The position numbers and the translations under genes are program-made. From assembly GCA_018985225.1 (NCBI GenBank), contig JADGIF010000013.1:1-42432 (forward strand): a DNA stretch of 42,432 nucleotides. Direction: 5' to 3'. Shown one piece after another: positions 5,437 through 39,077 of the stretch. The notes beneath the pieces are model-generated. The model was not told the DNA's origin. It ran no database searches and worked only from the letters and a program-made list of their open reading frames with translations. The stretch comes from Amoeboradix gromovi. Taxonomy: Eukaryota; Sanchytriomycota; Sanchytriomycetes; Sanchytriales; Sanchytriaceae. Position 1 is the first letter of the stretch, and the number at the start of each line of letters is the position of its first letter.

Positions 5437-7469
5437 TTAAACCGAATTTACTATAGCTTCTGCTTTACGCAATGCATTCAAAGTTGTTTTGACTTCTTCT
5501 CGTCTTTGTGCAACAATTTCGCTTTCTTCCAACAAGTTGATATTAGTTGTATCTCTGTATATCTGTGACAGCAATTCCTTTTGCATATTATCCTTACTAT
5601 ACTGCACTAGATGGTACATGATTGCTTTTGGTACCATATCACTCAATGTCCTTTTCACAATCGCAAAGTAAGAAGTTAACAACAGCTCTAAGTTAGTTAA
5701 AAATTACTTATAACCTCGGTTTCCAATATCTCTCGTTCATTCAATTGCCCTTGTGCTCTAATAACACTTGGTGGGGGAGGGGTATCGTCAAAGTTCGTTT
5801 TCTTTTTACTTCCAAAAAGCCCTCCAAACCACCCAGAATTTTCGGGTGTTCCTCCTTTTAGTACCTCTTCTTGTCTAATTGTAGTTGCATCTTTTACTTT
5901 CTCTTGTCTCCCTATAGCAGATTTAGCAGCGTAAGTGGCATCATTTACAATACTCTGTTTACCCAACAACATTCTCTCTTGCACCATTGCAGTTGCTTTA
6001 TGTCCGTTTATAAAGTCAGGATGGGCTGTATTTATATAACATGCCTCGCTGCTAATTAAATCTTCAACCAATTTATTTGTTGGTTTTAACGCAGAATTAA
6101 GAAAAGAAAGTATTGTGTTGTAGATACGGTCCTTTAATGCTGGGAAGCGCTTAAACGCAGGATGATTATTTAATAAATGAGTTAAAATTCTCAAGATTTC
6201 ATCATAAACTAATCCTACGCACTTAAGACTCGGACTTCTTAACCGCTCAATCTGCTGCTTCACAAGAACTTCAAATGCTTGTGTTCCTACAAACAAGCTA
6301 GGTTGCGATCCGCTAGAGTTATATAAAATAGTGCGAATATCTCCATCTTTAATTTTATCGAATGGGTCTAAATCACGAACACCAGCAGCAAACCATTCGT
6401 GAAACACATAAGCAATTCTTGCACCTCCACTTAGTTGATCACTCTGCACTTCACTGGTTCCATCCAAAACATTCTTAAAATCACGAGCCAGATCTGTCAA
6501 TATCTGTAGCAAAATATTAGCTTCATCATCTTTTATTGGATCACCCAGCTGCTGTAATTCTGTGGTGCACTTGATAATTTGCTGTTGGATCTTGGCTTTA
6601 GTATCTGGAAGAGTAGCTTTGATATGATGCATAAGGATTAAGTTAAGTTTCTTGGCCAAATAGCCGGTGCCGCAATATTGTGACTTATTTCCGTAAGAAG
6701 GATGGTTCTCAAAATACTTTCTCTCATCCTCGAGGGCTAATTTAATGGATTTCTTTTGATTTATATCTTTTTGACCTCGGTTTATAACTGGAACGTAACC
6801 CAATCGGAGAGGAATTACTCTACCAGCTAGCACATCAATAACATCTGTATCCTTGTCCATTAAATCAATCTTGGTTAAAACCCCAATTGTTCTTAAACCC
6901 TCAGGGTCCACCTCACGGGCCAGTTTTAACCCATCTGAATTTGCAAGATCTGTATTTGCAGCCGTAACAGCTAATATAATCGCGTTAGGGCGAGAGATGA
7001 ATTTTACAAGCATGTTGCGGATTTGGGACTCAATATCAATTGGTTGATCACCAACAGGTACTTTAGTGATTCCTGGTAAATCTACTAAAGTTAAATTCAG
7101 AACATTTGGGGAGAAAACACGCAAATTTATGGGAATAGGGGAGATCCCGGTATTGCTACCACACGCACGGTCAGTTTCCGCTATGATTTCCTTTCTAATC
7201 TCATCAAAATCAGTGAACTTCTTATCGGTGTGTAAGAACATACCATACTCCTCTTTGCTGTGAATTAACTGTAAAACAAGCGGACGTCGAGTAACAATTC
7301 CACTTCCACGAGGTAAAAAATCACGACCAACTATGTTTTCTAATACACTGGACTTGCCACTACTTTGGCTACCAATAACTGTTATTTGTGGTAAATCGAT
7401 AGGATTATTTGTAATAACACCAAGGGCATCTTGCAGCTGATTTACAAGAGTTATTAGCTGAGCATCCAT
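5437..7469 (-). CDS. VPS1: Vps1/Drp1-type dynamin GTPase, two exons split by a 20-nt intron
   Basis: Coding sequence is complement(5437..5687, 5708..7469), 670 residues. The GTPase domain shows the P-loop GSQSSGKS (33-40), the DLPG switch (130-133) and TKID (199-202). The middle domain follows, then a short variable insert ending in a Pro run (about 560-575) and the GTPase effector domain. The unspliced frame stops just after ETEVI. Removing 5688-5707 gives [18 protein letters not shown], the classic start of the effector domain, which continues to the stop at 5437. There is no PH or Pro-rich C-terminal domain, as expected for Vps1/Dnm1-type proteins acting in vacuolar, peroxisomal or mitochondrial fission. 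Vps1 versus Dnm1 is not settled by eye. Confidence 0.95.
5688..5707 (-). other. 20-nt spliceosomal intron in the dynamin gene
   Basis: Coding-strand sequence gtaatttttaactaacttag. It has a GTAA donor, a TAACTAAC branch-like motif and a TTAG acceptor. It is in phase 1. Retention gives an in-frame TAA inside the intron. Removal fuses two halves of the conserved effector domain without loss of residues. Confidence 0.93.
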
Positions 7470-7668
7470 TTTAAAAGTTTTGAAAACACCCCTATTTAAT
7501 AAAACTTAAAGCAAGGATGACATCAATATCTTTTAATGATTCAAATTAACCCATTAGAAGTTTTGCAGCACTTTCAGCTATCCGAAATTCAGAATTCTAA
7601 ATTTTGAGTTCCAAGATATTTTCAGACAACTTGATATGATGCTAGGTCTAGTACTAGGTACTTTTGGC

Positions 7669-7677
7669 ATAAATAGA
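7669..7677 (+). promoter_or_regulatory. TATA-like element (CATAAATAG) upstream of the secreted Tyr/Lys-rich protein
   Basis: It lies 24-32 bases before the ATG at 7701, so a conventional spacing to the transcription start would leave almost no 5' leader. Similar AT elements sit just upstream of the other two small secreted genes (about 5221-5229 and 17396-17403). Confidence 0.4.
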
Positions 7678-7700
7678 GACACGTGTACACCAGATAACAA

Positions 7701-8081
7701 ATGCTATTTACTTTAATTTTCGCAAGTGACTATTCAAAGCCAGATTATGGAAAAGAAGTCAATCCAGCATATAGCAAACCTGATTACAAGAAGCCGGAAT
7801 ACCATGATGACCATCATGACAATGATTATAAGGAGACTGAAGATTCGCCAGATTATAAGGACCACGATTATAAACCCTACACTAAGCCTGATATTCCAGA
7901 TTACAAAGAACAGTACGTAAAAGATGAGAAATATTCCACAGAGCCGTCGAAGACATCTTACAGCCCACCCGTTGAGTCTCAAGGCTACAGTGAACCTCCA
8001 TCTTCTCAATATGATGAATATAGCAGCGCTTCAACATTTACCCACGTAGCAATGGTCTTGGGTGCTCTTTCCTTCCAATAA
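7701..8081 (+). CDS. Small secreted, probably GPI-anchored Tyr/Lys/Asp-rich protein
   Basis: A 126-residue protein with a very short hydrophobic leader (MLFTLIFA), a body made of YKxPDY- and PDYK-type repeats rich in Tyr, Lys, Asp and Pro, and a C-terminus of small residues (YSSAS) followed by a short hydrophobic tail, FTHVAMVLGALSFQ. This is the layout of a GPI-attachment signal. The protein at 16744-17367 has the same architecture and a similar YSSAS junction, so the two may belong to one surface-protein class. A TATA-like element precedes it. No known family recognised. The body contains DYKDHD, by chance the core of a common epitope tag. Confidence 0.7.
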   Translation: MLFTLIFASDYSKPDYGKEVNPAYSKPDYKKPEYHDDHHDNDYKETEDSPDYKDHDYKPYTKPDIPDYKEQYVKDEKYSTEPSKTSYSPPVESQGYSEPPSSQYDEYSSASTFTHVAMVLGALSFQ

Positions 8082-8511
8082 ACTTTTATTACCAAATTTA
8101 TGATTTCTACTTACAATTGGGATACTCGCTTTAAAAAAATTACACTGCTTTCACACCAGTGTCCATACTTTAAGCATCAACTATGTAAGGTAGTTTTAGT
8201 ACCACTTTTTATCTACTACACGTTATTTTTATATTTGCGAAGACATTCATTGACTTGATAACTTGCTAATTGCGGTTGTGAACATTTTGGAACTAGGTGG
8301 GAAAGTGACTGCCTTGGTGTAATGGACATAGTATGTTACGATTTGTGTACCACTGCCTTTGCTTTTTTTTCTCACTAAACATTTAAAAGATGACGGCCAA
8401 AAGATTTACTGTTCTGCTTGAGTTTGTATTAACTTTGCTAAATAATATAAGCATTGATGTTTATCAATAAATATCAGCAAGAATTGAAGAGGTAAATAGA
8501 ATCATGGAATC
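8082..8511. other. Intergenic, no feature recognised
   Basis: AT-rich sequence with stops in all frames, no tRNA-like fold and no repeat shared with the rest of the window that I could find. Confidence 0.6.
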
Positions 8512-8940: not shown

Positions 8941-9319
8941 GGGACACCAAATATAAAAACTAGACTAACTCGTTTTTAAATGTGCACCATACGGAGGAAA
9001 TGCTATCGTTAATAAAAGAACTTCTATTATAACAATTCTCTTTCATTGATTGTATTCCTCTTTTTAAGATAAAAGTAGAAGACCCTGCATCTCGTTCAAA
9101 TATATGAGGTCTTTGAGCATCTCAGAGGTTTATTTGAAATAAAGATTGGATGAAAGAGTAAGAGAATAGCTGTACAGAATATCTATTTTCCTTTCATACT
9201 CGTCAACTCCGCAACTAGCTGAATGTCCACTCGCCTCTTAAATCCATAAAATTAATAAAGCTGAAATAATGTTCCAAGTTGTTACAGAAAGTTAGTCCAG
9301 TTTTTATATTTGGTGTCCC
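8941..9319. mobile_element. MITE-like element with ~29-bp terminal inverted repeats and TTAT target duplication
   Basis: It starts GGGACACCAAATATAAAAAC and ends with the inverse complement of nearly the same sequence (GTTAGTCCAGTTTTTATATT then TGGTGTCCC). The element is bracketed by TTAT on both sides, a plausible 4-bp target-site duplication. The 379-bp interior has no substantial open frame. The right ~170 bp are nearly identical, inverted, to 42276-42432, and the end matches 1-70. The left half is homologous to the element at 37391-37672. No transposase is in the window, so it would be non-autonomous. Confidence 0.82.
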
Positions 9320-9476
9320 TTATGGAAACGAAAGAGGTTGCGAATATGTGAATCCTGATCAGAATGCTACTTTGAATATTAGAAATGTATTTATTAGTTT
9401 TACAAAAACACTAAAACTTTAATTACTTTATCCACGTGCGTTATGAATCTTTTTTAAATCATTTTAAGCAAGGAGA

Positions 9477-10508: not shown

Positions 10509-10552
10509 TTGTACCATCCATTTATTTGTGGTTCTATAATAATGAGCCCATT

Positions 10553-10855
10553 CTCCTCGTTAAAAGACCTGATTTCCGAGAAAATCGAGAATTTCCATAG
10601 AGAAACTAGAAGTGCTAGATGCTCCGTTACAGTGATTGCTCACGCTTTCACTACCCCGGGGCGGGATTGAATAAGGATGCAGATACTTGATGTATTTGTT
10701 CCTTGCTGCCATATGATTTCTACTGTTGCACACGTGGTAAGAGTAACCACAAGAATTAATAAATAAATGGTTTGCAGCCTTATTTATCGTTGATCTCTTT
10801 CCAGGCATTGAAAGACATTTAATTGTTCCATGTTTGGACCAGTTCCTCAACGTTG
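10553..10855 (-). pseudogene. Fanzor2/TnpB (IS607-like) 3'-end relic
   Basis: The fragment encodes NHMAARNKYIKYLHPYSIPP and ends ...EILDFLGNQVF-stop, matching the tail of the better copy at 36961-37381. The acidic residue of the final RuvC motif (DRD in the better copy) is replaced by RN, and the CxxC finger is deleted. The conserved nucleotides run past the stop to CGAGGAG and then end abruptly, as at the other copies. It faces away from the fragment at 10856-11065. Confidence 0.75.
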
Positions 10856-11065
10856 ATCAATTTATGCTCTACCTATTACTTATTTCTTTAGATTTGATTT
10901 ATCGTTAGTGAAAAGGAAGAATATCTAGTATTTAAGCTGTTGCAAAATCTGGAAAAGTCTTGAAATTATACAAAAATGCATACTAATTGGTGATAAATGA
11001 TTTATTCAAGACAGCAATCGAGCTGCATGTGTTTGTGCAATAGACTGATGTGCTTTTCTTGTAAT
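10856..11065 (+). pseudogene. Second TnpB-like fragment, head-to-head with the preceding one
   Basis: This stretch is homologous to 36960-36715 (minus strand), whose frame reads EEYRVFKLLEKSGKV and KLYKNAYKFAINDLF. Here the frame is interrupted by stops. It begins within a few bases of the 5' limit of the 10553-10855 relic, pointing the other way. The same divergent pairing occurs at 24343-25030 and 36340-37381. Confidence 0.5.
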
Positions 11066-11500
11066 AAGAATGTTAGTAGAAGAGAATTAAACCATGTATT
11101 GAAATCGCTGTAAAAAATCAGCGTAACTAATAATTTTTGTTATACACACCAAGGGTTTGTTAGTTGCAAAGCCCAGTGCTGTAATTCTACATACTAGGCA
11201 GGCATTGAACTTTGCAAAATAAATCATTAATCGAGAATCTGTATGTATTTCTATACAATCGCATGACTTTTCTAGATTTTTCAAATACCTAATGCTCGAT
11301 ATTCTCCATTCAGACTCAAGGTACATGCAATCAATAGGTGCAGTCCTGAACATGTCAAATCTAAAGAAACAGCTAATAGCTGTAGTATACATACATAAAC
11401 GTTGAGGAACTGGCCCAAACATGGAAGAATTAAATGTCTTTCAATGCTGGAAAGAGATCAACGATAAATAAGGCTGCAAACCATTTATTTAATAAATTAA
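11066..11500. repeat. Inverted copy of 24600-25030 (Fanzor-relic derived)
   Basis: The reverse complement matches the 24.6-25.0 kb region with only scattered differences (roughly 96% by eye over ~330 bp). It contains the same divergent junction, with a short piece of the Fanzor frame (about 11400-11500) truncated at an AT-rich run. A 100-codon frame is open in both copies (minus strand here), but a different frame aligns with the better TnpB-like fragment, so I treat it as non-coding. 11501-11652 shows no gene. Confidence 0.8.
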
Positions 11501-11652: not shown

Positions 11653-14600
11653 CTAACTATTGTTAAACACATCTACATATTTAGTTCTTCTCTTACTTTT
11701 TCCTCTGCTTAGTCCTTCGCCTGCTAGTAAGTTCAGTCCTGGTATTTCTACACTTCCTTCTAGTGTACTGTTGTTACTCCTGGTTGGCGCTATACTATTG
11801 TTGCTACTTTGGTTTGATTTGCTTGCTTTTGGTGGCATAATTACTTTTGGTTGCTCTATGCTTTGTTCAATCTACATTAGTTAGTGTTACATTTGGATTT
11901 ACCCATTTCTGCAGTTTCTCATCGTAATAAAAACTTGATTTCTCCCCCAAATCTGCATTTACAGGTTTAACCTTTGTTGCAGTGTCCTTATTTCCTGCAC
12001 CAAAACTAAAAATACCTTTTAATGTGCTAAAGTAGCCTGCCTTTTCATCCTTTTCATTTTTCTCATCATCCACGTCTACATCCTGCTCGGTATTTTCAAC
12101 AATCTGTTGTGCCTGTTCTATTATTGGTGAAGGAGGTACTTCAGCTGAAGTCTGCGCACCAGAAAGAAATTGTTGTGGCAGCTGAGCCTGATTTGGCATC
12201 TGAGGCATTTTGTTCTGATACACGTTTACTGGTTGTGCTTGAGTCACTGGTTGTACTTGAGCCACTGGTTGTGCTTGAGTCACTGGTTGTACTTGAGCCA
12301 CTGGTTGTGCTTGTGATAAATGATATACTGGCTTTTGGTTTCCCTTGGTCTGCTGTGCTTGGTGTCCCTGTATTCCACGCTCAACTTGCACAACCTCGTA
12401 ATAACCCATCCTCTCTTCGTCACTTCCGCTTATCAACACTTCCAATTTGTTATATATACTCTCCTTTATCCCGTTGTTCTTGTATTTTAGAATTCCCATT
12501 AATCTGTTCATTCTACTGCTTGCGACTGCGCCAATAACTAGCCTATTCTGATTTCTATTCAAGTATTCAATCATAATTGTACATTCCTTAACATACCCAC
12601 ATTCTAGCAAGTGGTATGCTGCATATATCAACCAGGGTCCAATATTGCTAACCGCAGGTATCGGTGCTGTTGCCGATGTTGCCGATGTAGGAGTAGGAGG
12701 TGTGTTTGTTAGCGAATCTACGATCATCCCCACGACTATTCCCTCGTCGTCCATTCGTATGCTCATCTTATTGCTCAGTATTCCCATTAAAAAGTAGTAT
12801 TCTTCATTTAAGTCTTTAATAAACTCGCTGACTGCATCTGTGCTGTTGTATAATAAACTGATCTTTATTACACTGGCTGCTAATAGTTTGATATCGCTTG
12901 CAGCACTAGTGTTTCTGGCATCCGCTAAAAGCAGCTTAACAGCATCTGTAGGGTAGTTGTTCATCAATAAGAGCAAAAAGTGGAATACTGTGACAGACGA
13001 GTCATTTGCATCCAATTGGGCTGGCATTTTCATTCCACTCGCTAATATCTTTGGCAGCATGTCCCGGTCTACCATTAATCCATAAACATAGTAGCTGTTT
13101 TTAATTAGCAGTTGAGATGCAGCCAGCTTATTGTTGTTTAATATCAACATGGTACACTGATTAAATAACGGGTTGGTAATAGAAATAGTGGCAGACTTGA
13201 AATAATCAGTTATAGTGGCATATAGTGATTTATTAGATGCGATAGAAGATGATATGAGAGTATACAAAAGATTATAAGGACTGTTCGTGTTATTGCTAGC
13301 GGATTTGCTTTTTATGTAGTCGCTGATGCTCTTGTTATTTACACCTTTTTGTAGCAGCAATACCGTGTTGCGTGCATTGGCATGCAACAATGAATCAACA
13401 CTGAGAGCTTTTATCTTCTTAGAAATGGATATACAGTTACCAAGAGGATTGAAGATGGATAACAGACCAGACAAAGGAGCGTATAATTTAGATTCAGGGG
13501 CAGGTTCTTTGGATTCAAGAACACTTGCTTTGGATATACGGGATGTAGGTACTTTCGTGATAGGAGGAATAGCTGGAGTGCTAGCCGTAATTACAGCTAC
13601 TAGCCGTGTACCGCATTCACAACAAAACTTGGCATTCTTTATGTTGTTGAATTTACAGTTACTGCACGTGTTATGGTCAGTGTTGTTATTGTTCTCGTGG
13701 GCAATCCAGCTACTTTGGTATTCCTGATGTTCGTGCTCGTTTTCAGTAGCATTATTACCAGTATAATCAGTTGTATCATTAGAATAATCAACATCATCTA
13801 TCCAATTACTCTGGAATTGAGAGGGGTTTTGATACTCTGGGTACTCTTGTTGATCTTTAGGATACTCTGGATACTCTTGCTGATCTGCGGTATACTCTGG
13901 GTACTCTAGCTGATCTGGTTCTGCAGGATAGTCTTGTTGATCTGCCGGGTATTCTGTATAATCCTGATGTTCTGGTTCTGCAGGATAGTCTTGTTGATCT
14001 GCAGTATACTCTGGGTACTCTAGCTGATCTGCAGTATAAGCTGGGTACTCTTGTTGATCTGCAGTATATTCTGGGTACTCTTGCTGATCTTTAGGATACT
14101 CTGGGTACTCTTGCTGATCTGCGATATATTCTGGGTACTCTTGCTGATCTTTAGGATGCTCTGGGTACTCTTGTTGATCTGCAGAATACTCTGGATACTC
14201 TTGCTGATCTGCAGAATACTCTGGATACTCTTGCTGATCTGCGGTATACGCTGGGTACTCTTGTTGATCTGGTTCTGTAGGATATTCTGGATGTTCGTTA
14301 TGGTCTGTAGGATACTCTGCGTGCACTTTCTGGTCCGTCGATCCGTTGAATTCTTGCTGGTCCAGTAATCCATTAAACCCCTGGTGCTCAAGTCCTTCAG
14401 GAGCATTATTGCCATCATATTCGTAGTATGCCTGATCATATTGTTCTGCAATTTTGTTCTCGCCATTTTGCTGCTGCGTGTTGCTAGAATCACCAAGAAC
14501 CGTGTCACTATCTATCATAGTTTCATCTTGATATATGTTAAGGTAGTCATCAAATTTCGGTTGCTCTTCAAAAACATGATTTATCTGATTCTGCTCCTCC

Positions 14601-16690
14601 AAAACCTGCTCTTCAAAGACTTTGTTTTCCTCCTCTAATTGCTCTTGTTCATCATAGTTTTGCTCAGTTTCTTCTTCCGACTTTGTGGCTTTTTCCTGAT
14701 CTGTTTGCTCATCTTCTTGATCCAGCCGATCCTCGTCCACATACTGATCAATGTGATCTGCAATTGTATCTCTCTTGGTAACATTATTTAAACTGTCTAT
14801 TGTATCACCTCCATCAATATTCCAAATGCTCTGATGCAAAACCTTGCCGGATTCTGATTCAATCGAATTAAACGGGTTATCGTTGTTTAGCTGTGTATTA
14901 CTGTATTCATCATACTGAGTGTCAAATGCAACATCTAGTGGATCAGAGACAACATTTATAGGTTTAGGAAGAGCAGCGTTTGGATTGATAATGGTGTTGT
15001 ATTTGTCGTTATCTTCCATATCAGTCACATCATGGCTAAACAGCTCTTTGGAACTGTTAGTTACCTTGGCGTGAATATCCTGATCTAAGTCAGGCGAGTT
15101 ATCAATAACATATTCATGAAATGCTTCAAGGCTATTCATTCTGCTCGCAGATGTGTGATGTGGTGGTGATATAGTAGAATGCGTGCTACGGACGCTGGAG
15201 TTGGATTTGACACTAGTACGATGGTTACTAGTATGAGGTACGAAAGATGAATCATTGTTGAATATGTCAGGGCCATCTGTAATAGTGTCCAACGTATTAT
15301 CCCATAAGTCAGGAATGACAGGATTGCTATTGCTATCATGATTGGGAACTGTCCAGTTGGTATCCCATAGATCTGGTTTCTTAACCTCTGCCTTTGGTTG
15401 CATGACAACAGACTCTCTTTTAGAAAAACCAATAGTTGGAGTGATGTCTACTGGTAATTTCTTAGAACTCTCAGTTTCATTAGCAGAATAGTTGGGTTTC
15501 GCAGGAAGAGGTTTGGAGTGTTCTGCTTTCAATGGTGAATACTGAACGTTGTGTTCTATTTGATCCACAACTGTTTTACTAGAATTATCCGCGGGAGAAT
15601 TAAACGTGTTAGCATGGCGCTCATTAGCGGCCCTAACAGGAAGAGTTTTGATAAGTTCGGCAGTGCGTGGTGATTTCAGCTCATTTGGGGACTTGGGTAG
15701 CACAAGTTGATTAGGTCTGGTAGTAGTTGTGCTAGACTTGTGGGAATCACTCACAGAGAAGTGCTTGGAATTAGTGGAGGTGGTAATAAAAGTCGAATCT
15801 GCTGATTTAACTGGTTCATTAACTAATTTAGACTTCGCTGGTTCACCCTCTGGTTTAACCGATGCCTTCTCGGTTGATGCAGCTCTCTTAGCCTTGCTCT
15901 CCATTTTTATAGAATACTTTTCTATTGTTGAATCATTTTTAGTAAGCTTATTATCATCTTTTGTATAATCAATACTATCCCAATTAGAGGCGTTCTCCCA
16001 GAGATTGGAAGGTGGAGAGTGTCGAGGAATTTTGTCAACTGTTTTGAATGGATTTGGAGACTCAGGAGACTTAACAGTAACGCTTTTATTCCAAGAATTA
16101 TTCGTGTCCCAGAGATCAGAAGAAGTAGGAATAGGTATGCTTGAAGTGTTGCTAATTTTGTTACTTGTTTGCGGATTACTGATATCTTCATTGGAAGAGG
16201 ACGGATTGTTAGCCATTCGCTGTTTCTTTAACTTAATTCTGTCACTCAAAGATAACTTCTGTTCCGCTAGTTTATTACGCGAAGAAGGAATTGGTTTAAA
16301 TGGTATATCGGGGACCAAGTGACTTGCGTGTTCATTTATGGGGTTGTTGTTGATATTAGCAGCAGGATTAGATGAAGGGAGGTTGGATGGCTTGTTAACA
16401 GGATAATGAAGTGGAATTTGAGCTTTACTAGGTTCATTGGGCTTAGCAGTGCTGGAAATTGCACCACTGCTAGTGTTGCTAGTAGGTAGAGGATTAGATT
16501 TGGGAAGGGATTTGTTATGTTGAATGGCTAGATTTGCAACAGGGTTTACGACTTTGGATTTACGAATATTCAATGTTGATTTGTCTAGCTCGATAGGATT
16601 CGTAATATTTTGCTGTTTAATTGGAGACTTTATATTTAAACTAGAATCAAAGTGCTTATCAAATTGGTTAAGCCAGTCGTCGTTATCCAT
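11653..16690 (-). CDS. SEC16: Sec16, COPII coat scaffold of ER exit sites; 19-nt intron near the 3' end
   Basis: Coding sequence is complement(11653..11871, 11891..16690), 1672 residues. The start MDNDDWLNQFDKHFD was preferred over an upstream frame lacking family features. The order is: disordered N-terminus with repeated WDTN/LWDN-type Trp motifs; an acidic Gln-rich region; a ~150-residue run of DQQEYPEY repeats (about 800-950); a zinc ribbon CSNC...CCEC (about 1015-1035); the helical central conserved domain (about 1100-1500); and a QPVAQVQPVTQ repeat. The C-terminus has LGEKSSFYYDEKLQKWVNPN and, after splicing, ends in IPGLNLLAG...RTKYVDVF, both typical of fungal Sec16 tails. It organises Sec23/Sec31 at ER exit sites. 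The 3' exon is recognisable only when the mini-intron is removed. Confidence 0.93.
11872..11890 (-). other. 19-nt spliceosomal intron in SEC16
   Basis: Coding-strand sequence gtaacactaactaatgtag, phase 0, with a CTAACTAAT branch-like motif. Without splicing the protein stops 4-5 codons later. With it the frame continues NPN-IEQSIEQPKVIMPPKAS into the conserved C-terminal IPGLNLL and YVDV motifs. An alternative 20-nt GT-AG choice nearby leads at once to a stop. Confidence 0.93.
12229..12311 (-). repeat. Short tandem repeat in SEC16 encoding QPVAQVQPVTQA
   Basis: Three to four near-identical units of about 36 bp (alternating GTTGTGCTTGAGTCACTG and GTTGTACTTGAGCCACTG) encode a Gln/Pro/Val linker between the central domain and the C-terminal motif. 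Confidence 0.85.
13831..14290 (-). repeat. ~30-bp tandem repeat in SEC16 encoding DQQEYPEY units
   Basis: Around fifteen units of 30 bp (some 27 or 33) share the core CTCTGGGTACTCTTGTTGAT. They code for DQQEYPEY followed by two variable residues (SA, TA, PK). The regular Tyr/Glu spacing in a disordered region upstream of the zinc ribbon suggests a low-complexity, possibly condensate-promoting segment; this is inference. Confidence 0.92.
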
Positions 16691-16743: not shown

Positions 16744-17367
16744 TTATTGAAGCATGTGAATCGAAACATAAGATATAATGATCGAAGCCGATGAAGCACT
16801 GCTGTAGTAGGTGTCTGCAGTTTCCTGAGGATATGGGGAACTTTGGTATTCCGTTTGAACTGGAGCATCTTGTGCACAAGGTTCAGATTCGGCAGACTCT
16901 GGAGAGAGGTTTGAAGGCTTATGAGGCTCAGGATTAGGGATATCTATATGTGTGTCCTCTACTTCAGCTATTGGAGTAGGTGGTTTGTAATCATAACCAT
17001 TTGTCGGTTGAACTTCTGGAAGTTGTTCCGGTTCTGCATGTGTCTCTGGAATAGCTTCTGGGAGTATCTCTGGAATAGGTACCGGAGAAGAGTGAATTGG
17101 CTCTACTTCTGGTGCGGATTCCGGTTCTGTTTCCGGTGAGTGTTCTGGCTCTAGTTCAGGTGCAGCAGTATGCTCCGGCTGTGGTTCATATACCTGGCTT
17201 GGCTCTGGCTCATATACTTGAGATGGTTTTGGATAATCTTCCTGGGCATCTTGGACTTCAGGGATATATTGATGCGGTACCGGATATCGTCTGGTTGGAT
17301 ATGTGTGACTTGGATAGTCATTGTGAGCGTAGTCATTACTATAAGCTGCTACTAAGGTGTAAAGCAT
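16744..17367 (-). CDS. Secreted, probably GPI-anchored Glu/Pro-rich protein
   Basis: A 207-residue protein with a very short hydrophobic leader (MLYTLVAA), a His/Asp/Tyr-rich start, and a long Pro/Glu repeat region (EPSQVYEPxP, PEVEPxHSS, PEAIPETHAEPEQ). The C-terminal YYSSASSA is followed by the hydrophobic IIISYVSIHMLQ, the expected form of a GPI signal. It resembles the 7701-8081 product in layout and in the YSSAS junction. A TATA-like element (CTTAAATA on the coding strand) lies about 30 bases before the ATG. It is upstream of SEC16 on the same strand; the two start codons are far enough apart that a shared transcript is not required. No homologue recognised. Confidence 0.68.
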   Translation of the reverse strand: MLYTLVAAYSNDYAHNDYPSHTYPTRRYPVPHQYIPEVQDAQEDYPKPSQVYEPEPSQVYEPQPEHTAAPELEPEHSPETEPESAPEVEPIHSSPVPIPEILPEAIPETHAEPEQLPEVQPTNGYDYKPPTPIAEVEDTHIDIPNPEPHKPSNLSPESAESEPCAQDAPVQTEYQSSPYPQETADTYYSSASSASIIISYVSIHMLQ

Positions 17368-17983
17368 ATCAGTTTGTTGAGTACGCTTTGATTTCTATTT
17401 AAGTATTTCCAGTTCTGCGACTGTCTGAGAAACCTGTTACTATTCCTGTTTTTAAGATTTGACACCTATTATTGGAAACCAATTTGCCTCGTGCCTTCGA
17501 CCAGACGGTATCAGGACTTTGTACCCTCAATAGGAATCTCGTATTAAGTTTGAAATATTTTGTTCTCAGTTTCAAACACGCTCCGCAGCTTTTGCTGTTC
17601 AGACTCACTACAGACAATTCTTTTTTGTATGGTATGGTTTCACCTTTGCGCTAAGACTTTGATTTCTTAGCTTTTCAAGCGCTTTATGGACGCTAAGAAT
17701 AGGTATAATGCCGGCTTTTAATCTCCCAGCGCTCAGTTATTGAAAAGTTACAATTACGCAATCTTGAGTATGTATGATCAAGCATTTTTTATACGTACTC
17801 GATGTAAAATTTTTTACCCAATGTTAACTAAATCATTTAGAATCTTCATTTTAGCATAATGTAGCTGTTTTACCCTAATTTGCGCGAAAGTGATAAGATA
17901 GATTAATTTTATTGATACTCTATTGAGAATTGAGATTTTAATTCAATTTGTGGTGGTTGTTTCTCTGTGAAACTGATCCTTAT
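17368..17983. other. 616-bp intergenic region, no gene recognised
   Basis: Open frames of 60-72 codons exist on both strands, but the longest minus-strand one begins with TTG and has no recognisable sequence. About 17440-17650 is less AT-rich than its surroundings, so a non-coding RNA is possible, but I see no snRNA, RNase P, SRP or tRNA signature. It must hold the divergent promoters of the flanking genes. Confidence 0.5.
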
Positions 17984-19903
17984 ATGTTTCGCAATATTGC
18001 AGTTGCTGAATATACTCGTAAAATCATAATAATTCCATATAACATAGCTGTTCATAATCAGCTCAGTAAATTGTATGTTCCAAGAGATGTTGTGCTTGTA
18101 TTGGTATATGATTTTAGATGTAAAAGTCCTTGGCCTGTAATTCAGAAGTTAGTTTGGAATGCCAATCCACTTTTAGATCACTTCAATTTTGATAGGATTC
18201 AGATATTGTATAAAAATGTTATAGTTTGTAATGCTGATACCAATAATTCTGATGTTTATGGATTGCTTCTTGGCTATTTTAGTTCCTTCAAAGTACCAAT
18301 TTATTGCAGGTTTCCGACTACGATTAAAAGCGAGCTATATAATGAAATTTTTAATTTATTTCATTTTCTGTCTATAAAATCTAACTTATACCATTTAATA
18401 TTTGATATGCCATTAGATTCGCAGTATTTGACTTTTAGAGAATTCTTATATGAGCCCAAATTAGCTTGCGATTTTAAAAGTTTTTCAGTAAAGAACGTGT
18501 CTCACTTCCTCAGTAGATTGCTTCAATCGCATAGTCTGATCTGTAATTTTGATTCGTTTCAATTAAAAGCTAACAATTATTATGAGTTTATTCAAAGTGC
18601 TTCGCACTCTTCATCGTCCTTGCTTCGAGATGATGATTATCCTAGATCACTCATTAATTTGAAAGAATTCAACGACATTAATTTCAAAGCAAACAAATTT
18701 CAGGCAATTATTTATAATTCATCTGATAACAAGATTCTGGGAAATTCCATAAGCATAGGTGAATATACTTTCCAGTCTTGCTTGTTCTCTTGTGATAATA
18801 TTGCAAAAACTGCTTCGTTAGCAAATCTATTCATTTCTCAACTGCTTATTAACTGTTTTCTAAAATTCAAATATTTCCAAGGCTTTAAATTTTACCTTGA
18901 TGGTGTATTTGGTCTTAACCATGATCCAGCTCTTTATATTAAGTGTTTCAAACTTGCGGCTTCGAACGATTTCTTTTTCAGTCCCTCTAAATATGTACAA
19001 CTCGCAAGTCAGTATCTTGCAAAACACAATGCTGGCAACTTGGAATTTACATTTACCAAAAATGATCAGCGATTTGGATACTTCTCGTGCACTCTAACTA
19101 TAAGTTCATTGAAATATTCCAACCATTGCAATTATTTTATTAGTAAAAGTAAGTGCCGTCAGAATTTGGCTAAACAATTTTGCACTCAGTATGCTGTTCT
19201 TAAATTTATGTATGACAGCAACTCAAATATCATTCAGGCTAGAGAGCTTAACATTCCACAGGAAGATTTAAGAGAGAGAATAAATGCTTTACCATGTGCT
19301 CAGCTTTCAATCCCAAACAGCAAAAAGAGGAAGCAGAGCAATAACGAGAGTGATATTATATTAAAAAGGTTGAAGAAAAGTATCGTGGTCCCAGCAGGCC
19401 TAACAAACCATTGGAAAAACGAAGAATCTCAGAGCAAAATTCAAGGATTAAATCAAATTCAGTTAAATAATTGGCATGCAAAACCAGATAGAAAAATTAT
19501 TCAGCCTGCAGTTACAAATTCTATGGTTAATAGCACAGAAAGGATGCTCATGTGCAACAAAGACACTCGGCTTGACAATTTGAAAACGTTCCAAGACCAA
19601 GAAAAAACTCTAAAAAACCCAAAAATTCAAAACGCTACAAGGCTTGAGTTTCAAAAGACCCTTAATTTTGTAAAACAAGACAGTTTTAACATGAACCTCT
19701 TAAGTAAAATTGAGGTAGGGCTGCTATACAGATTGTACATAATTAAATATCCAATGGAATATACAAATAACTTTGAGTATTTGAAGAAGTTTGTAAATGT
19801 AGAATGGGAAACTGTTTGCGAGAAAGAGAAATTGGAATATTGGAGATACACTCTTGCAATAAAAATGGCAGAAATTTATAAAAAAATTATCAATAGTAAA
19901 TAA
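17984..19903 (+). CDS. Possible dsRNA-binding / HMG-box-like protein (639 aa)
   Basis: The start used is the first ATG in the frame (MFRNIAVAEY); upstream codons lack one. Residues around 330-410 resemble a double-stranded RNA-binding fold: a hydrophobic first helix, strands, then SKSKCRQNLAKQFCTQYAVLKFM, comparable with the SKK-AK-AA-AL helix. An earlier stretch (about 235-290) may be a second, weaker copy. A basic, Gln/Asn-rich linker includes a KKRK nuclear-localisation-like patch near residue 455. The last ~65 residues (LYIIKYPMEYTNNFEYLKKF through WETVCEKEKLEYW and KMAEIYKK) have the spacing of an HMG box. Neither assignment is strong. There is no signal peptide. Confidence 0.72.
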   Translation: MFRNIAVAEYTRKIIIIPYNIAVHNQLSKLYVPRDVVLVLVYDFRCKSPWPVIQKLVWNANPLLDHFNFDRIQILYKNVIVCNADTNNSDVYGLLLGYFSSFKVPIYCRFPTTIKSELYNEIFNLFHFLSIKSNLYHLIFDMPLDSQYLTFREFLYEPKLACDFKSFSVKNVSHFLSRLLQSHSLICNFDSFQLKANNYYEFIQSASHSSSSLLRDDDYPRSLINLKEFNDINFKANKFQAIIYNSSDNKILGNSISIGEYTFQSCLFSCDNIAKTASLANLFISQLLINCFLKFKYFQGFKFYLDGVFGLNHDPALYIKCFKLAASNDFFFSPSKYVQLASQYLAKHNAGNLEFTFTKNDQRFGYFSCTLTISSLKYSNHCNYFISKSKCRQNLAKQFCTQYAVLKFMYDSNSNIIQARELNIPQEDLRERINALPCAQLSIPNSKKRKQSNNESDIILKRLKKSIVVPAGLTNHWKNEESQSKIQGLNQIQLNNWHAKPDRKIIQPAVTNSMVNSTERMLMCNKDTRLDNLKTFQDQEKTLKNPKIQNATRLEFQKTLNFVKQDSFNMNLLSKIEVGLLYRLYIIKYPMEYTNNFEYLKKFVNVEWETVCEKEKLEYWRYTLAIKMAEIYKKIINSK

Positions 19904-19968
19904 CATGATCAAATGACACAAATATCGCAACTCTTTCGTCATTTCGCGCAAGGAGCTTAAGAGCCGAT

Positions 19969-24342: not shown

Positions 24343-24690
24343 TATAAGTCCTGATTTCCGAGAAAATCTAGAATTTCCACAGAGAACTAGCGGTGCTAGA
24401 TGCTCCGTTACATTGATTGCTCACGCTTCCACTACCCTGAGGCGGGATTGAACAAGGATACAGATACTTGATGTATATCCCTTTCTGCCATGTCGCCTCT
24501 ACCTATCTCCAAATGACAGTTGATACAAGTGTAGCTCTCCAAATTGGTTTCTTTAGAGTATCCGCGTTGTTGCACACGCAAGACATACGAACCATTAAAT
24601 AAATGGTTTGCAGCCTTATTTATCGTTGATCTCTTTCCAGGCATTGAAAGACATCTAATTCTTCCATGTTTGGACCAGTTCCTCAACGTT
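24343..24690 (-). pseudogene. Fanzor2/TnpB 3'-end relic
   Basis: The minus-strand frame contains ETNLESYTCINCHLEIG, the second CxxC half of the zinc finger found intact at 36961-37381, followed by a damaged DRDHMAARN motif (GRGDMAERD) and then stops. At nucleotide level the match continues through GGAAATCAGGACTT; the terminal CGAGGAG is degraded to AACAAG. Upstream it meets a divergent segment, as in the 10.5-11.1 kb relic. Confidence 0.72.
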
Positions 24691-25030
24691 GATGTATGTA
24701 TACTACAACTATTAGCTGTTTCTTTAGATTTGACATGTTCAGGACTGCACCTATTGATTGCATTTACCTTGAGTCTGAATGGAGAATATCGAGCATAAGG
24801 TATTTGAAAAATCTAGAAAAGTCATGCGATTGTATAGAAATACATACGGATTCTCGATTAATGATTTATTTTGCAAAGTTCAATGCCTGCCTAGAATGTA
24901 GAATTACAGCACTGGGCTTTGCAACTAACAAACCCTTGGTGTGTATTACAAAAATTATTAGTTACGTTGATTTTGTGCAGCGATTTCAATACATGCTTTA
25001 ATTCTCTTCTACTAACATTCTTATTTAGTA
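24691..25030 (+). repeat. Copy of the 11.07-11.4 kb segment, carrying a short TnpB-like fragment
   Basis: Nearly identical (reverse complement) to 11066-11405. In the frame shared with the 36.7-36.9 kb fragment it reads MENIEHKVFEKSRKVMRLYRNTYGFSINDLF and then stops (written here only to show the shared YKN/RNTY-INDLF pattern). Truncated and not expected to be functional. Confidence 0.7.
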
Positions 25031-26482: not shown

Positions 26483-26967
26483 TTGGACTTGGTGAAGAGG
26501 TATTTAACTGAGATTATTGAACGCAGAAGAGAAGAACTAGTGGTAGACGAGGAATCTGGGCTAGCAAGTAAACCCGTGTCATTGCAATCACAAGACGCAT
26601 CAAATACATCACCGAAGTTGACCATTCATCATGGTACCATAGTTGCCAAACCAAGTGAAATCGTACGTGATAAAGAAGCATTCAGTAAATTAAGATGAAG
26701 TAAATTCAATGCCTACAAAGAGATCAAGGATAGACAAACCTGTAAACTATTTGTTTAATAATACTTATGTGATTGCTCTTACCACATGTGTAACAATAGA
26801 GAGATCGTATGGCGGCAAGGAATGTATACATCAAATATATGTATCCTTATTCAATCCCGCCTCAGGGTAGTGCAAGAGCGACCAGTCACTGTAACGGAGA
26901 TCTAGTACCGATTGTTTCTCTGTGGGAATTCTCGATTTTCTCGGAAATCAGGACTTTTAACGAGGGG
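26483..26967 (+). pseudogene. Fanzor2/TnpB relic ending 25 bp before the thioredoxin-like gene
   Basis: A 72-codon frame without ATG (26483-26698) is followed by sequence matching the 10.5 kb and 24.5 kb relics (TTCAATGCCTACAAAGAGAT onward). In one frame 26800-26870 reads RDRMAARNVYIKYMYPYSIPP-like sequence, so the final RuvC acidic residue is kept, but stops and the missing finger make it non-functional. The 3' limit is CGAGGGG at 26961-26967, equivalent to the CGAGGAG end of the other copies. Whether the 26483-26698 frame belongs to the element is uncertain. Confidence 0.6.
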
Positions 26968-30827: not shown

Positions 30828-32098
30828 CTATTTTTCATCGATATCTACGTTGAACATAAAATCGAATTCCTGGTCCTTTGGCAAAGGACTTTCAAAACTA
30901 TGTTTTTCATTCTCATCCTTGATCTCATGAATAGCTTGCTCCATTTGCTTCATAAAGTCTAAGTTAATCAAGAAATACATGAATGATACGGTGAGGTTGC
31001 AAAAGGTGAATTTGGCATTGGTGACCATGGTGATTCAGGTGGAGACGTACCGCCAATTTGGTTGCCTGCGACTTTCAAAGTCTGGGTTTGAATTGGAGGC
31101 GGCGCAGTTTTCTTTGAAAAAGACGGCAACGAGTTTGGTTGCTGCGTATAACTGTTCGGCATGTTAGAGCCCTGTACACTATTACTAATACCAGTCGTAG
31201 TAAACGTAGGAGTCGCTTGAACCGGCGAAATAGCTTTGCTTAGCCAGCTAGAAGGAGTTACACTTAAATAGTCTTCCGCAGTATCTTCAGCGTTGAAGCC
31301 GTTTGAGCTGTGCCTAAAGAAGCACGATTCGCCATAATGGCAGGTGCCTTTCAAGTCAAAGTGGCAGAGAGGTGGCAAGTACTTTTTTGATACCATGGAA
31401 GCATGAATAAGCCTACACTCATTTGGAGGTAGGGAACATAATCCATAGGTCCACTCCTGGCAAACAAACTGAGGCGGCACTTCTTTAACGCGAATACTAG
31501 GTACAAGGGAGGAATCTCTGATCATAAATGCCAAGTATGGCTGATTTGAATGTTGAGACTGCTGCAGCTGACCTATAGATTTCAACACTTGGACAATCGC
31601 ACCATTTGGTGCGTTTAGTTTAGTACAATAAGTCTTGTTATACAAATGTTCAAGATCTGTGATTGATATTGCGGTATTTGCAGCGAGTAAATGAGTAACA
31701 CGTTTAGCAAATGCATCAATATTGGATTGAGGCTGATCCGGCTTTACTCTCTTATGCCTTTCGACCAGTGTAATGTAGCATTGACTAAGGTGTTCAATAC
31801 GAAACACCCAGCTGAATTCCTCAAGCCATTCTATGAGACTCGTCAAATGACCAAAATGCTGCATCAATTCTAAATCTCCAAACACTTGCTGATACAATTT
31901 GAATAAATCTTGACAGTTAACAAACATTCCTTCTAAATCAGCGAATAATTCCATAACTCGCATTAAAAATTGATAGCGTCTTCCTTTGATTAGATGATTA
32001 AATCTGTCGATGTTAATAGGCAAATCAGAAAGTTTATCTTTTAACAATCGGCGCTTCTTTGTAGGTTGTCCTTTTTTCAACATTGAGGTTTGAGTCAT
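30828..32098 (-). CDS. CCCH zinc-finger protein with LOTUS/winged-helix-like region; 20-nt intron
   Basis: Coding sequence is complement(30828..30958, 30979..32098), 416 residues, starting MTQTSMLKKG; the frame upstream has no ATG. Residues about 30-100 and 127-177 look like winged-helix or OST-HTH/LOTUS modules. Two CCCH fingers follow: CQEWTYGLC...CRLIH (~213-232, C-x7-C-x6-C-x3-H) and CHFDLKGTC...CFFRH (~245-263, C-x7-C-x5-C-x3-H). A Ser/Pro/Gln-rich tail is continued by exon 2, which adds a 43-residue acidic end (MKQMEQAIHEIKDENEKHSF). CCCH fingers of this kind normally bind RNA. It is divergent from ArgRS. Family not identified. Confidence 0.85.
30959..30978 (-). other. 20-nt spliceosomal intron in the CCCH zinc-finger gene
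   Basis: Coding-strand sequence gtatttcttgattaacttag, phase 1, with TTAAC as the likely branch motif and a TTAG end as in the dynamin intron. Retention gives TGA within four codons. Splicing yields PYHS-YFMKQMEQ and an open frame to TAG at 30828. Support is the shared intron form and the open frame, not family homology, so slightly weaker than for the dynamin and SEC16 introns. Confidence 0.85.
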
Positions 32099-35306: not shown

Positions 35307-35724
35307 ATGGAAATAGACTCACTACTAAACAAAGAAGTAAATCTGGAAAAGACACAGAGAAAGGTAAGAGGATACGGTAACAAATTTGACAAAGAGTACA
35401 ACGATATGTTTATAAAGCATAAAGCTCAAGTACCATCAAGCGTGGTAACCAATCTAGCCAAGTCACGAAGACTGGATAGGGAACTTGTAAGGATATGGTT
35501 CCATAACCGTAGAACTGTACATTAAACTAATTTAGAAAGAACGACAGACATTATTGAAGAAATACAAGTCCTCAGTGTTGAAGCTAAAAAGTGCAATGAG
35601 TTCACCATATGAGCTGAATACATTCGAAGAGCTATCAGCTTATCACATTCATTTGCAGGATGAGTGTAAGAGTTTACTAGATACCCTTGCTTCATTCCAA
35701 GAGGGAAACTTTGCATCAATTTAA
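35307..35724 (+). CDS. Homeodomain protein, 19-nt intron inside the homeobox
   Basis: Coding sequence join(35307..35516, 35536..35724), 132 residues. The homeodomain spans about 16-75. Its recognition helix LDRELVRIWFHNRRT holds the invariant W48, F49, N51 and R53 of the family. The unspliced frame stops two codons later; splicing continues with KERQTLLKKY, completing helix 3 and giving a 60-residue C-terminal helical region (SAYHIHLQDECKSLLDTLASF). Such small homeodomain proteins are DNA-binding regulators, in fungi often of mating type or development. The 3' part is duplicated at 38188-38375. The start is the first ATG. Confidence 0.87.
35517..35535 (+). other. 19-nt spliceosomal intron in the homeodomain gene
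   Basis: Sequence gtacattaaactaatttag, phase 0, with an ACTAAT branch-like motif and TTAG end. It follows the codon for the Thr after WFHNRR. Retention gives TAA after two codons; removal restores the basic end of helix 3. Confidence 0.92.
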
Positions 35725-36960: not shown

Positions 36961-37381
36961 TGATCTTATATACTTGCCATCGTTAAATACTAGTCAAATG
37001 ATAAGTAGCTTGTCGAGTAAGTCGCAAGAAATATGGCTACAATGTCCCATTACGCATTCAAGGAACGCTTGAAGTTCAAGTGCAAACAAAGAGGAAAGAC
37101 GATAATCGAATGTAATGAATCATTTACTAGTCAGACATGTACAAGGTGTGGTACTCTGAACAAAACCAGCTTAGAAACCTACACCTGTACCAATTGTCAT
37201 TTGAAGATAGACAGAGATCACATGGCAGCAAGGAACAAATACATCAAATATATCCATCCTTATTCAATCCCGCCTCGGTATACTGAAAGCATGAGCAATT
37301 ACTGTAACGGAGTATCTAGCATTGCTAGTTTCTCTGTGGAAATTCTCGATTTTCTCGGAAATCAGGACTTTTAACGAGGAG
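36961..37381 (+). pseudogene. Best-preserved Fanzor2/TnpB (IS607-like) C-terminal fragment
   Basis: A 113-codon open stretch (37033-37374) holds SHYAFKERLKFKCKQRG, the glutamate-bearing ECNESFTSQTC, zinc-finger pairs CTRC and CTNC, and IDRDHMAARN with the last RuvC aspartate, the order seen in TnpB/Fanzor nucleases. Sequence further upstream (LPSLNTSQMISSLSSKSQ) is in another frame, consistent with a one-base deletion near 37028, and everything before 36961 is missing, so it cannot encode a full nuclease. After the stop only seven bases (CGAGGAG) are shared with the other copies. A MITE-like element starts 10 bp downstream. Confidence 0.8.
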
Positions 37382-37390
37382 TCAACATCT

Positions 37391-37672
37391 GGGACATCAA
37401 ATATAGAAACTAGACTAACTTTCTGAGATAGTTTGAATCATTATATCAAGTGCGTGTTAACCGATAATAAATTAAATTAAATTAATCTGACTGGTTGCAC
37501 CTTTTGCTTAGACACTCAAAGACCTTACTTGAAAGAGCGTGGGTCATCTTGTTTTATTTTAAAGAGAGGAATGATGTTGATGAAAGAAGGCCTTTTATTA
37601 ATAATAGTATTTGCTCCTTATGGAGCACCTCCTTTAAAAACGACTTGGTCTAGTTTTTATATTTGGTGCTCC
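37391..37672. mobile_element. MITE-like element, 282 bp
   Basis: It begins GGGACATCAAATATAGAAAC and ends with the inverted equivalent GTTTTTATATTTGGTGCTCC (reading into 37672). Its interior, reverse-complemented, is homologous to the left half of 8941-9319 (AATACTATTATTAATAAAAG and similar). Flanking bases do not form a clear target duplication. No coding capacity seen. Confidence 0.72.
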
Positions 37673-38187
37673 AAATAGTATAATACCCAACAAATTCCTC
37701 CACAATAACTTTACACTGGGATTATCTTTGAACGATACTGACAGGATGATGTCAACCTGATTTGTTAAGATGCTGTTGCATCCCAAACGGTGGCATAGGG
37801 GCCATATGTTTTTGTTTCATCAAAGCATGTTGAATTGGTTTTCGTATTTCTGGACTGAATTAAAAGCCCTTTCCAGAATCAGTCATTGATCTACTTTTAA
37901 TTGTCTGGATACCATTTGTCATAGTATTGACACAGGATCCAAAGGAGGCATGACAGATAAGCATTAATCAAGACTGTTAATCAGCTAGGCCATTTTGAAA
38001 CAGATGTTGCCAGTTCACTTTTCATATTGAGAAAAGGCTTAATGGCATATTATGCGACTGACACATGTTTCCAGGTGCTCCTCCGACTTGAAGTTGGGAC
38101 CCATTCAAAACTTTTAAGATAATCTGGTGATCATAGAGCGAGTACCACTTTCCGATTTGGTTGCCTTCGCGATAGCAAATTGGGCTC
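37673..38187. other. Gene-poor region with one protein-like stretch
   Basis: On the minus strand around 37855-37755 a stretch reads SPEIRKPIQHALMKQKHMA then PMPPFGMQQHLNKSG before a stop. Upstream frames are broken, so it is probably a decayed gene. Nothing else was recognised. Confidence 0.3.
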
Positions 38188-38375
38188 CGAAACTTTACTT
38201 AGTACCCTTGCTTCGTTGCATGAGGGAAATAATTTAACATTTGCAACAACAAATACCGTGTAATCAGCAGTCATTCTTCTATGCTTTGTTTCCTTTATGA
38301 AATAACACGTTTTTATCTCCTATGGTTATCGTACTGAACGAAGGATGATATGGCGATATGTTAATCACATGGGCA
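38188..38375 (+). repeat. Degenerate copy of the homeodomain gene 3' end and downstream sequence
   Basis: TTTACTTAGTACCCTTGCTT and the following ~180 bp match 35672-35850 (TTTACTAGATACCCTTGCTT and onward, including GTACTGAACGAA and CACATGGG) with many changes. The coding part is out of frame and no homeobox is left upstream, so this is a truncated, decayed duplicate. Confidence 0.65.
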
Positions 38376-38446
38376 AAACAAGTCGATATGATTGGTTAGC
38401 TCTCGTGAAAATAAATCGGGTTCCATTATAATTGAAACAATCGCAC

Positions 38447-39077
38447 ATGATGAAAAAAGTGTATGTTATCTACTATTCAACCCATGGACATATGGCCAAA
38501 ATGGCAAAAGCAGTGAAGGCAGGATTGGAGAAAAACGGTGTAAATGTCGTTCTAGGGCAAATCGCAGAGACATTACCTGAAGAAGTCTTGGTCAAGATGC
38601 ATGCAGTACCAAAAGACACCTCAGTGCCTGTCTTGGAACCAAGTGACATCAAAGATGCGGATGGTATCCTATTTGGCGTACCTACCCGATATGGAAATTC
38701 TCCTGCTCAAGTCCGAGCATGGTTTGATAAGTCTGGTGGTATCTGGGCTACCCAAGGATGGAAGCACATTCCAGCCGGGGTATTTGTAGGTACTGCCACA
38801 GCGCATGGTGGTCAAGAAACCACTGTTATGACTTTTATCACCCAATTGATACACCATGGTATGCCTTTTGTACCTTTGGGATATGGGCATGAATTATTAG
38901 GACAGGTAACTGAAGTAATGGGAGGAGGGTAATTAATAATAATTTAGTCCGTATGGAGCTGGAACCATTACAGGAAATGGTGCGAAAGATGTAACGCCAA
39001 ATGAACTCAAACTTGCAGAGTATCAAGGTGAACAATTTGCAAACTTTGTAAAGACTATTAATAAGGAAAATAAATGA
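38447..39077 (+). CDS. WRBA: WrbA/Pst2-type NAD(P)H:quinone oxidoreductase, 19-nt intron
   Basis: Coding sequence join(38447..38928, 38948..39077), 203 residues (the next Met, one codon on, is equally possible). This is a flavodoxin-like FMN enzyme that reduces quinones by two electrons, usually in oxidative-stress defence. Visible are the FMN-phosphate loop YYSTHGHMAKMA, PTRYGNSPAQVRAWFDKSGG, GVFVGTATAHGGQETT, HHGMPFVPLGYG and, only after splicing, MGGGPYGAGTITGNGAKDVTPNE. Exon 2 ends EQFANFVKTINK, the normal family terminus. Total length agrees with family members (about 200 residues). Sequence upstream of the ATG is a decayed duplicate region. Confidence 0.95.
38929..38947 (+). other. 19-nt spliceosomal intron in the WrbA gene
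   Basis: Sequence gtaattaataataatttag, phase 2. The branch region is TAATAAT rather than CTAAC. It lies exactly between GGG and PYGAG of the highly conserved GGxPYGAGT motif. Retention gives TAA at once after the third Gly. Confidence 0.95.

Follow-up and report, generated by a model that had tools for sequence, protein, structure and literature searches.

The window, meaning the whole stretch of DNA that was analysed, is a 42,432-nt contig of Amoeboradix gromovi (Sanchytriomycota; NCBI GenBank assembly GCA_018985225.1, contig JADGIF010000013.1), a little-studied fungus that is probably a parasite of algae. Five of its genes are predicted to be interrupted by an intron of only 19 or 20 nt. 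Three of these genes lie on the reverse strand. The gene for a Vps1/dynamin-like protein consists of exon 1 (5708 to 7469), encoding the Dynamin_N and Dynamin_M domains, and exon 2 (5437 to 5687), encoding the C-terminal GED and the stop; the 20-nt phase 1 intron between them, GTAATTTTTAACTAACTTAG (5688 to 5707), is indicated by the reading frame, by alignment with Drp1, and by relatives. A gene for a protein of 1672 amino acids (aa) has exon 1 at 11891 to 16690 and exon 2, with the stop, at 11653 to 11871, and a 19-nt phase 0 intron, GTAACACTAACTAATGTAG, is predicted at 11872 to 11890. In a CCCH-finger-like gene (exon 1, 30979 to 32098; exon 2 with the stop, 30828 to 30958), frame and relatives point to a 20-nt phase 1 intron, GTATTTCTTGATTAACTTAG, at 30959 to 30978. 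The remaining two genes are on the forward strand. The homeodomain gene (exon 1, 35307 to 35516; exon 2 with the stop, 35536 to 35724) carries a 19-nt phase 0 intron, GTACATTAAACTAATTTAG (35517 to 35535), within the homeodomain itself (WFHNRRT|KERQ), and the gene for a WrbA-like NAD(P)H:quinone oxidoreductase (exon 1, 38447 to 38928; exon 2 with the stop, 38948 to 39077) carries a 19-nt phase 2 intron, GTAATTAATAATAATTTAG (38929 to 38947), indicated by the alignment with WrbA.

An initial annotation of the window, made from the sequence alone, had described these five introns of 19 to 20 nt, and coordinates, frames, and motif confirm them: the lengths are 20, 19, 20, 19, and 19 nt in the order of the contig, and in gene sense all five start with GTA and end with TAG. 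The same annotation had placed a branch motif a few bases from the end in four of the five; a YTAAY-type motif is indeed present in four, and in all five the less strict NTAAY is separated from TAG by exactly one base. After splicing, the frame stays open for 83 (Vps1), 72 (1672-aa gene), 43 (CCCH-like), 62 (homeodomain), and 43 (WrbA) codons, versus 3, 7, 3, 2, and 1 codons to closure, respectively, if unspliced, and each of the spliced genes reads without interruption from ATG to a single stop. The pattern GTA-N8/9-TAAY-N-TAG matches the window five times, against 0.33 matches expected and a maximum of two in 60 windows simulated with a second-order Markov model, and the five matches are precisely the five introns first noted. 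The raw count of GTA-N13/14-TAG segments (51 in the window versus 36 expected) was dropped as evidence.

Removal of the introns had also been said to restore conserved family sequence in four genes, which stands for Vps1, WrbA, and the homeodomain gene, where solved homologues exist, but not for the 1672-aa gene, which had been called Sec16 and has no family match by which to name it. Against the C-terminal portion of human Drp1, spliced Vps1 shows no gap at the junction, nor does spliced WrbA (junction GG|GPYGAGT) against solved WrbA-family chains. The spliced homeodomain protein passes the Pfam cutoff (PF00046, 2.5e-06), and POU homeodomains align through its junction (best E value, 1.5e-4). 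Outside the window, spliced eIF3i and CCT7 are gap-free at the junction against solved structures, and spliced isovaleryl-CoA dehydrogenase aligns on both sides of the junction, with a 10-residue insertion relative to the human protein right beside it. The CCCH-finger-like gene gave only a weak Pfam match, below threshold.

For the 1672-aa protein, we found no Pfam match (at 1e-3) and no NCBIfam match, and the best hit among PDB sequences (E value, 0.64) is at chance level; no family search confirmed the Sec16 label. The support for the putative junction in this gene consists of the frame and the motif. A further 5' intron linking the open reading frame (ORF) at 16747 to 17394 to this gene was considered and rejected: the three GT..AG segments listed as joining the two (17, 20, and 29 nt) lack both GTA and a branch motif. 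We take this ORF to be a separate putative gene. The 1672-aa gene also contains a coding tandem repeat at 13831 to 14271, with approximately 15 copies of a 30-nt unit (EYPEYTADQQ type), and coding tandem units of 12 and 36 nt are found near 4.9 kb (4894 to 5036).

A search of the whole genome for frame-restoring short segments, proposed with the initial annotation, was run, and the same 19- to 20-nt length spectrum was found across the assembly. The genome scanned comprises 6,779,989 bases in 366 contigs, of which the window is one (C55). According to the available part of PMC8371127, the published A. gromovi assembly is 10.5 Mb in 1167 contigs with a G+C content of 36.27%, and that of Sanchytrium tribonematis is 11.2 Mb with 34.64% G+C. 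The G+C content measured in the bases analysed here, 36.4% and 36.2%, fits A. gromovi; the scanned set is smaller than either published assembly and may be a subset of the contigs. Segments of 15 to 45 nt starting with GTA and ending with CTAACTTAG were found at 58 places, of which 24 are 19 nt long and 8 are 20 nt long, with none at 17 or 18 nt and no more than four at any other length. Among 30 of the 58 loci taken with their flanks, all 20 of those at 19 to 20 nt join open frames (one being the Vps1 site of the window), with no fewer than 158 codons upstream and 21 to 385 downstream, and the unspliced frame is shut within 29 codons; at other lengths, 1 locus of 10 joins open frames, and that one merely extends a 19-nt site. 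A looser motif gave 351 places at 19 nt versus 90 in the backward control and 174 versus 70 at 20 nt. An 18-nt class was rejected, as the strict motif gave 0 places versus 9 in the control and the loose motif 32 versus 181. Longer introns ending in CTAACTTAG showed no peak between 21 and 45 nt; between 46 and 76 nt there are 23 places versus 75 in the backward control, and several of the 23 reuse 19-nt sites already counted.

One 19-mer, GTACTTCAAAATAATGTAG, is identical in 7 of the approximately 100 listed 19-nt places of the loose motif (C5:13350-13368, C29:3610-3628, two in C68, one each in C93 and C97, and C99:36-54). In C5 it restores no long frame, and it probably belongs to a repeat whose sequence imitates the intron motif.

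The length spectrum was also examined in an unselected set of 144 kb, composed of contigs C1 to C5 and the window and taken irrespective of motif. Frame-restoring GTA..TAG segments between 12 and 90 nt number nine at 19 nt and three at 20 nt, with at most two at any other length. With bare GT..AG ends, 19 segments are 19 nt long and 13 are 20 nt long, against approximately seven per length, and two other pairs of dinucleotide ends gave three to eight segments at 19 to 20 nt in the same DNA. A larger set of 216 kb contained the six unselected regions and 24 loci, many of which had been picked by the CTAACTTAG motif. When TAAY was required near the end, 38 segments of 19 nt and 8 of 20 nt were found there (controls, 2 to 4; other lengths, up to 11), a peak that partly comes from selection because motif-picked loci are included; the 144-kb scan is the unselected version. 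In 39 of the 46 frame-restoring candidates of 19 or 20 nt in the 216 kb, the spacer between Y and AG is two bases.

Most of the introns thus fall in a length band of 2 nt, as in the class of minimal introns (15 to 21 nt). The wording "uniformly this short" in the initial annotation captures the tight clustering at 19 to 20 nt but is slightly too strong: L024:411-431 (21 nt) and C1:16944-16965 (22 nt) are credible introns and likely exceptions. Two further likely introns end in AAG (C2:7260-7278, in what we take to be a Rab-like gene) and CAG (C3:889-907). The rule of 19 or 20 nt and TAG is tight, not absolute.

For composition and placement, we started from 44 places with GTA, a length of 19 or 20 nt, and TAAY two bases before AG. 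Seven were removed for a spliced ORF shorter than 120 aa, among them L022:2763-2781, which is probably a true intron in a gene truncated at the end of the locus. Two more were removed for an unspliced frame of more than 30 codons (C55:23887-23905 and L019:85-104). The 35 retained introns (28 of 19 nt and 7 of 20 nt) were subject to no minimum for either exon, and two of them are doubtful: in L027:1039-1058, exon 2 has nine codons, and in C3:4377-4395, the unspliced frame exceeds the spliced one. As the set was picked for GTA and TAAY, and many loci for CTAACTTAG, positions 3 and 11 to 17 are biased and position 5 is not.

G is absent from intron position 5 in all 28 of the frame-restoring 19-nt introns (T in 18, A in 7, and C in 3) and occurs there in one of the seven 20-nt introns, a doubtful one. 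Position 6 is T in 19 of the 28, and TAAY is preceded by C in 21, T in 4, G in 2, and A in 1. The usual, though not obligatory, donor consensus reaching to a G at +5 is not seen here. In the available part of PMC2483917, intron-poor genomes are described as having strong donors, and short-intron lineages (the Bigelowiella nucleomorph and Paramecium) as having GT(A) donors and no branch signal. The present genome joins the weak donor of the short-intron lineages with the strong, fixed branch site of some intron-poor ones.

The placement of introns within genes is also distinctive. In intron-poor genomes, introns are usually biased toward the 5' end, and such a bias is reported for microsporidia and yeast (PMC10245619, available part). 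Of the 35 introns retained, all from spliced ORFs no shorter than 120 aa, none lies in the first 40% of the gene and 33 are in its 3' half. Restricting the count to complete genes gives 27 of 29 in the 3' half, with a median position of 0.79 along the gene (binomial probability against an even spread, 1.6e-6), and in the unselected regions all 16 introns are in the 3' half.

Relatives leave the frame at the same codons. At the intron codon of Vps1, where the read-through of the window is ETEVISNF, two relatives from ENA (P0003 and P0004) end in ETEVISNL and ETEVISNSQLT. For CCT7, a EukProt protein that is 100% identical over exon 1 ends in GGGAIDVINY, and the protein of a second EukProt genome (P0123), 86% identical, ends in GGGAIDVI. 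Three ENA relatives of the CCCH-like gene (P0242, P0243, and P0244; 75% to 83% identical) exit the frame at the same codon: the window reads SPYHSCIS, two relatives read SPYHSCIFKLI and SPYHSCTFHY, and one continues into exon 2 in a different frame. If shorter than 25 nt, a GTA..TAAY-N-TAG segment fits the tails ETEVISNSQLT (P0004) and SPYHSCIFKLI (P0242) only at 20 nt, and the tail SPYHSCTFHY needs at least 22 nt. The site is thus kept while length and filler vary, which is how introns behave. No Vps1 relatives were confirmed in the viral and prokaryote contig collections.

Among named organisms, the closest relatives are fungi, and Blastocladiomycota rank first for CCT7, so that the earlier guess of a "fungus or relative" was right. 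For the trees, the 120 proteins listed for each family were reduced to 25 for CCT7 and 20 for Vps1, selected to spread across taxa. In the CCT7 tree, the EukProt pair has a long branch (0.77) on the Blastocladiomycota side (97/94), and in the midpoint-rooted Vps1 tree, a 100/100 clade unites the window Vps1 with the ENA relatives and the protein of the other EukProt genome. That last protein (P0007) shows a frame shift well before the shared site, with no stop, perhaps because of a further intron or a slip in the assembly.

Components of the splicing machinery were identified: a U6 gene scored 65 bits and has an intact ACAGAGA, and a U2 gene is recognised by its score of 102 bits. Taken together, the segments are almost certainly U2-type spliceosomal introns near the minimum size in the nuclear genome of a sanchytrid fungus, as judged from sequence features; the spliceosomal reading put forward in the initial annotation is supported, and the assembly-wide length spectrum agrees with it. 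In sequence, the introns consist of GTA, eight (19-nt introns) or nine (20-nt introns) loosely T-rich bases, TAAY, one base, and TAG, with TAAY mostly preceded by C (CTAAC or CTAAT). The likely branch A is position 14 or 15, five bases ahead of the last G. Under the proposed mechanism, U2 would pair with NTAAY and U6, through its intact ACAGAGA, with the short GUA donor. The fixed spacing itself, 13 to 14 nt between donor and branch A and a further 5 nt to the end of the intron, may serve as a recognition signal, and such a ruler of 19 to 20 nt could compensate for the donor information absent at position 5. Removal restores the frame. By the strict motif, the 6.78 Mb holds a few hundred such introns, those examined lying mostly toward the 3' end of the gene; the total is given only in this form because the backward controls vary so much. 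Actual splicing, branch-point use, and the ruler are the parts of this account that we infer. It is also probable, with rather less assurance, that the whole phylum (both sanchytrids and their uncultured relatives) has a spliceosome with a 19- to 20-nt ruler, a strong, position-locked branch point, no donor information beyond GTA, and introns crowded into the 3' half of genes against the usual 5' bias of intron-poor genomes.

Several observations weigh against this interpretation. In total, the 58 places ending in CTAACTTAG are not above the 67 of the backward control, whose lengths were not broken down, so the signal sits in the lengths. The backward controls of the loose motif range from 70 to 181, which makes genome totals rough. 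Requiring nothing beyond GT..AG ends lets other lengths climb to 15 (54 nt) and 13 (22 and 52 nt), and without the motif only the peak at 19 nt is therefore distinct, not that at 20 nt. The junctions of the "Sec16" and CCCH-like genes have no solved homologue aligned across them. U1 was not found in the genome with the Rfam model, in a search that is uninformative, as the control genomes also gave no match. Among the relatives, the tails of P0003 (ETEVISNL) and P0123 (GGGAIDVI) are compatible with many lengths; the frame of P0243 implies 19 nt, as read from its tail, but it does not fit the strict motif; and P0007 was dropped as intron evidence since it leaves the frame upstream of the intron.

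Other explanations would read the same segments differently. That they are spliceosomal introns spliced inefficiently or conditionally, with retention yielding a shortened C terminus and the 3' bias reflecting such use, is an unlikely alternative that draws on the position of the intron in the 3' half in 27 of the 29 complete genes; the part that would be lost belongs to a conserved protein in Vps1, CCT7, and isovaleryl-CoA dehydrogenase, which presumably need it. Far less plausible is that the segments remain in the mRNA and that ribosomes bypass them (translational bypassing) or shift frame, since common GT..AG ends, a branch motif of fixed position, and genes for U2 and U6 are a signature of splicing rather than of bypassing, and relatives retain the site though the tail sequence and implied length differ. 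The published sanchytrid assemblies were made by SPAdes in single-cell mode (PMC8371127, available part), which makes errors of assembly or amplification, or pseudogenes, worth weighing in a single-cell assembly. However, errors would not share GTA..NTAAY-N-TAG at 19 or 20 nt so widely, nor would other assemblies show them at the same codon, and the genes compared are conserved and otherwise intact; we regard this explanation as the least probable of all.

As near-minimal spliceosomal introns, the segments can be compared with those of four other lineages. The comparison offered in the initial annotation named nucleomorphs, Paramecium, and Stentor and omitted the mikrocytids, with introns of 16 to 17 nt (PMC10245619). 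The nucleomorph of the chlorarachniophyte Bigelowiella has introns of 18 to 21 nt, more than 800 in approximately 300 genes, and thus the same size range and a similarly narrow spread (PMC10245619), and its donor is largely GT(A) (PMC2483917). It is, however, a remnant algal nucleus for which no branch-point signature is reported in the available part of PMC2483917, whereas the introns here are sparser, reside in a fungal nucleus, and have a strong branch motif in a constant position. The mikrocytids (Mikrocytos and Paramikrocytos) are also parasites with few introns of uniform length and conserved sequence, 224 of them in M. mackini (PMC10245619), but they belong to the Rhizaria and their introns are 16 to 17 nt, and their taxonomy suggests an independent origin. 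In the heterotrich ciliate Stentor, introns of 15 to 16 nt share the uniform length and the fixed branch A, mostly the 10th base of 15, and have no strong branch consensus according to the available part of PMC9505925; the introns described here have CTAAC or CTAAT, 19 to 20 nt, and branch A at position 14 or 15. The microsporidian Encephalitozoon cuniculi is likewise an intron-poor parasite, related to fungi, with a branch motif (CTAAYTT), but its introns average 35.8 nt and have a conserved donor (PMC2483917), in contrast to the 19 to 20 nt, GTA donor, and 3' placement seen here.

We found no report of 19- to 20-nt introns in sanchytrids or other fungi in the open-access literature. The available part of PMC8371127 mentions introns solely in the title of a reference, and splicing nowhere, and PMC5701793 mentions neither introns nor splicing. 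TransDecoder was run on contigs to call the sanchytrid proteins, and the part of PMC8371127 available describes no intron step; for the p25alpha domain no sanchytrid protein matched and the gene was translated by hand from contigs (PMC10459994, available part). Earlier gene predictions seem to have missed these introns. If the introns are real, many C termini in published sanchytrid proteomes are truncated, and part of the gene loss reported may be artefactual. For sanchytrids and their relatives, it may be necessary to revise gene models, completeness scores, and claims of gene loss with introns of 15 to 25 nt allowed.

Fungi are a kingdom in which splicing is well understood, in yeast above all. 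A fungal case with a clear CTAAC branch site would make the minimal lariat size testable by comparison, and likewise the part played by branching factors (Yju2, Cwc25, and Isy1), whose plugs are reported to be altered in Stentor (PMC9505925). Introns of 15 to 21 nt have been reported from ciliates, nucleomorphs, and mikrocytids (PMC10245619 and PMC9505925, available parts), and the introns described here are apparently a new case of this class, with a feature combination of their own and an independent origin. They may also be an exception to the strong donors of intron-poor genomes (PMC2483917) if the full intron count proves low.

Other features of the window were also noted. No match was obtained in it with Rfam at gathering scores, and no tRNA with ARAGORN under the bacterial code. 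Two adjacent long ORFs of 653 and 359 codons, only a few bases apart, occupy 17942 to 20985 on the forward strand and have no Pfam match. Related and seemingly decayed copies of a repeat are found at 37021 to 37371 (forward strand), 26785 to 26965, 24385 to 25025, and 10553 to 11447; one ORF of these copies has a Cas12f1-like/TnpB TNB domain (PF07282, 5.5e-19), which we take to resemble Fanzor-type elements, and the copies at 11063 to 11447 and 24641 to 25025 are 97% alike in inverted order. Finally, a repeat of 78 to 167 nt, 93% to 95% alike, is present at both contig ends (1 to 78 and 42266 to 42432) and once inside (9163 to 9329), and it may explain why the assembly breaks at the ends of this contig.

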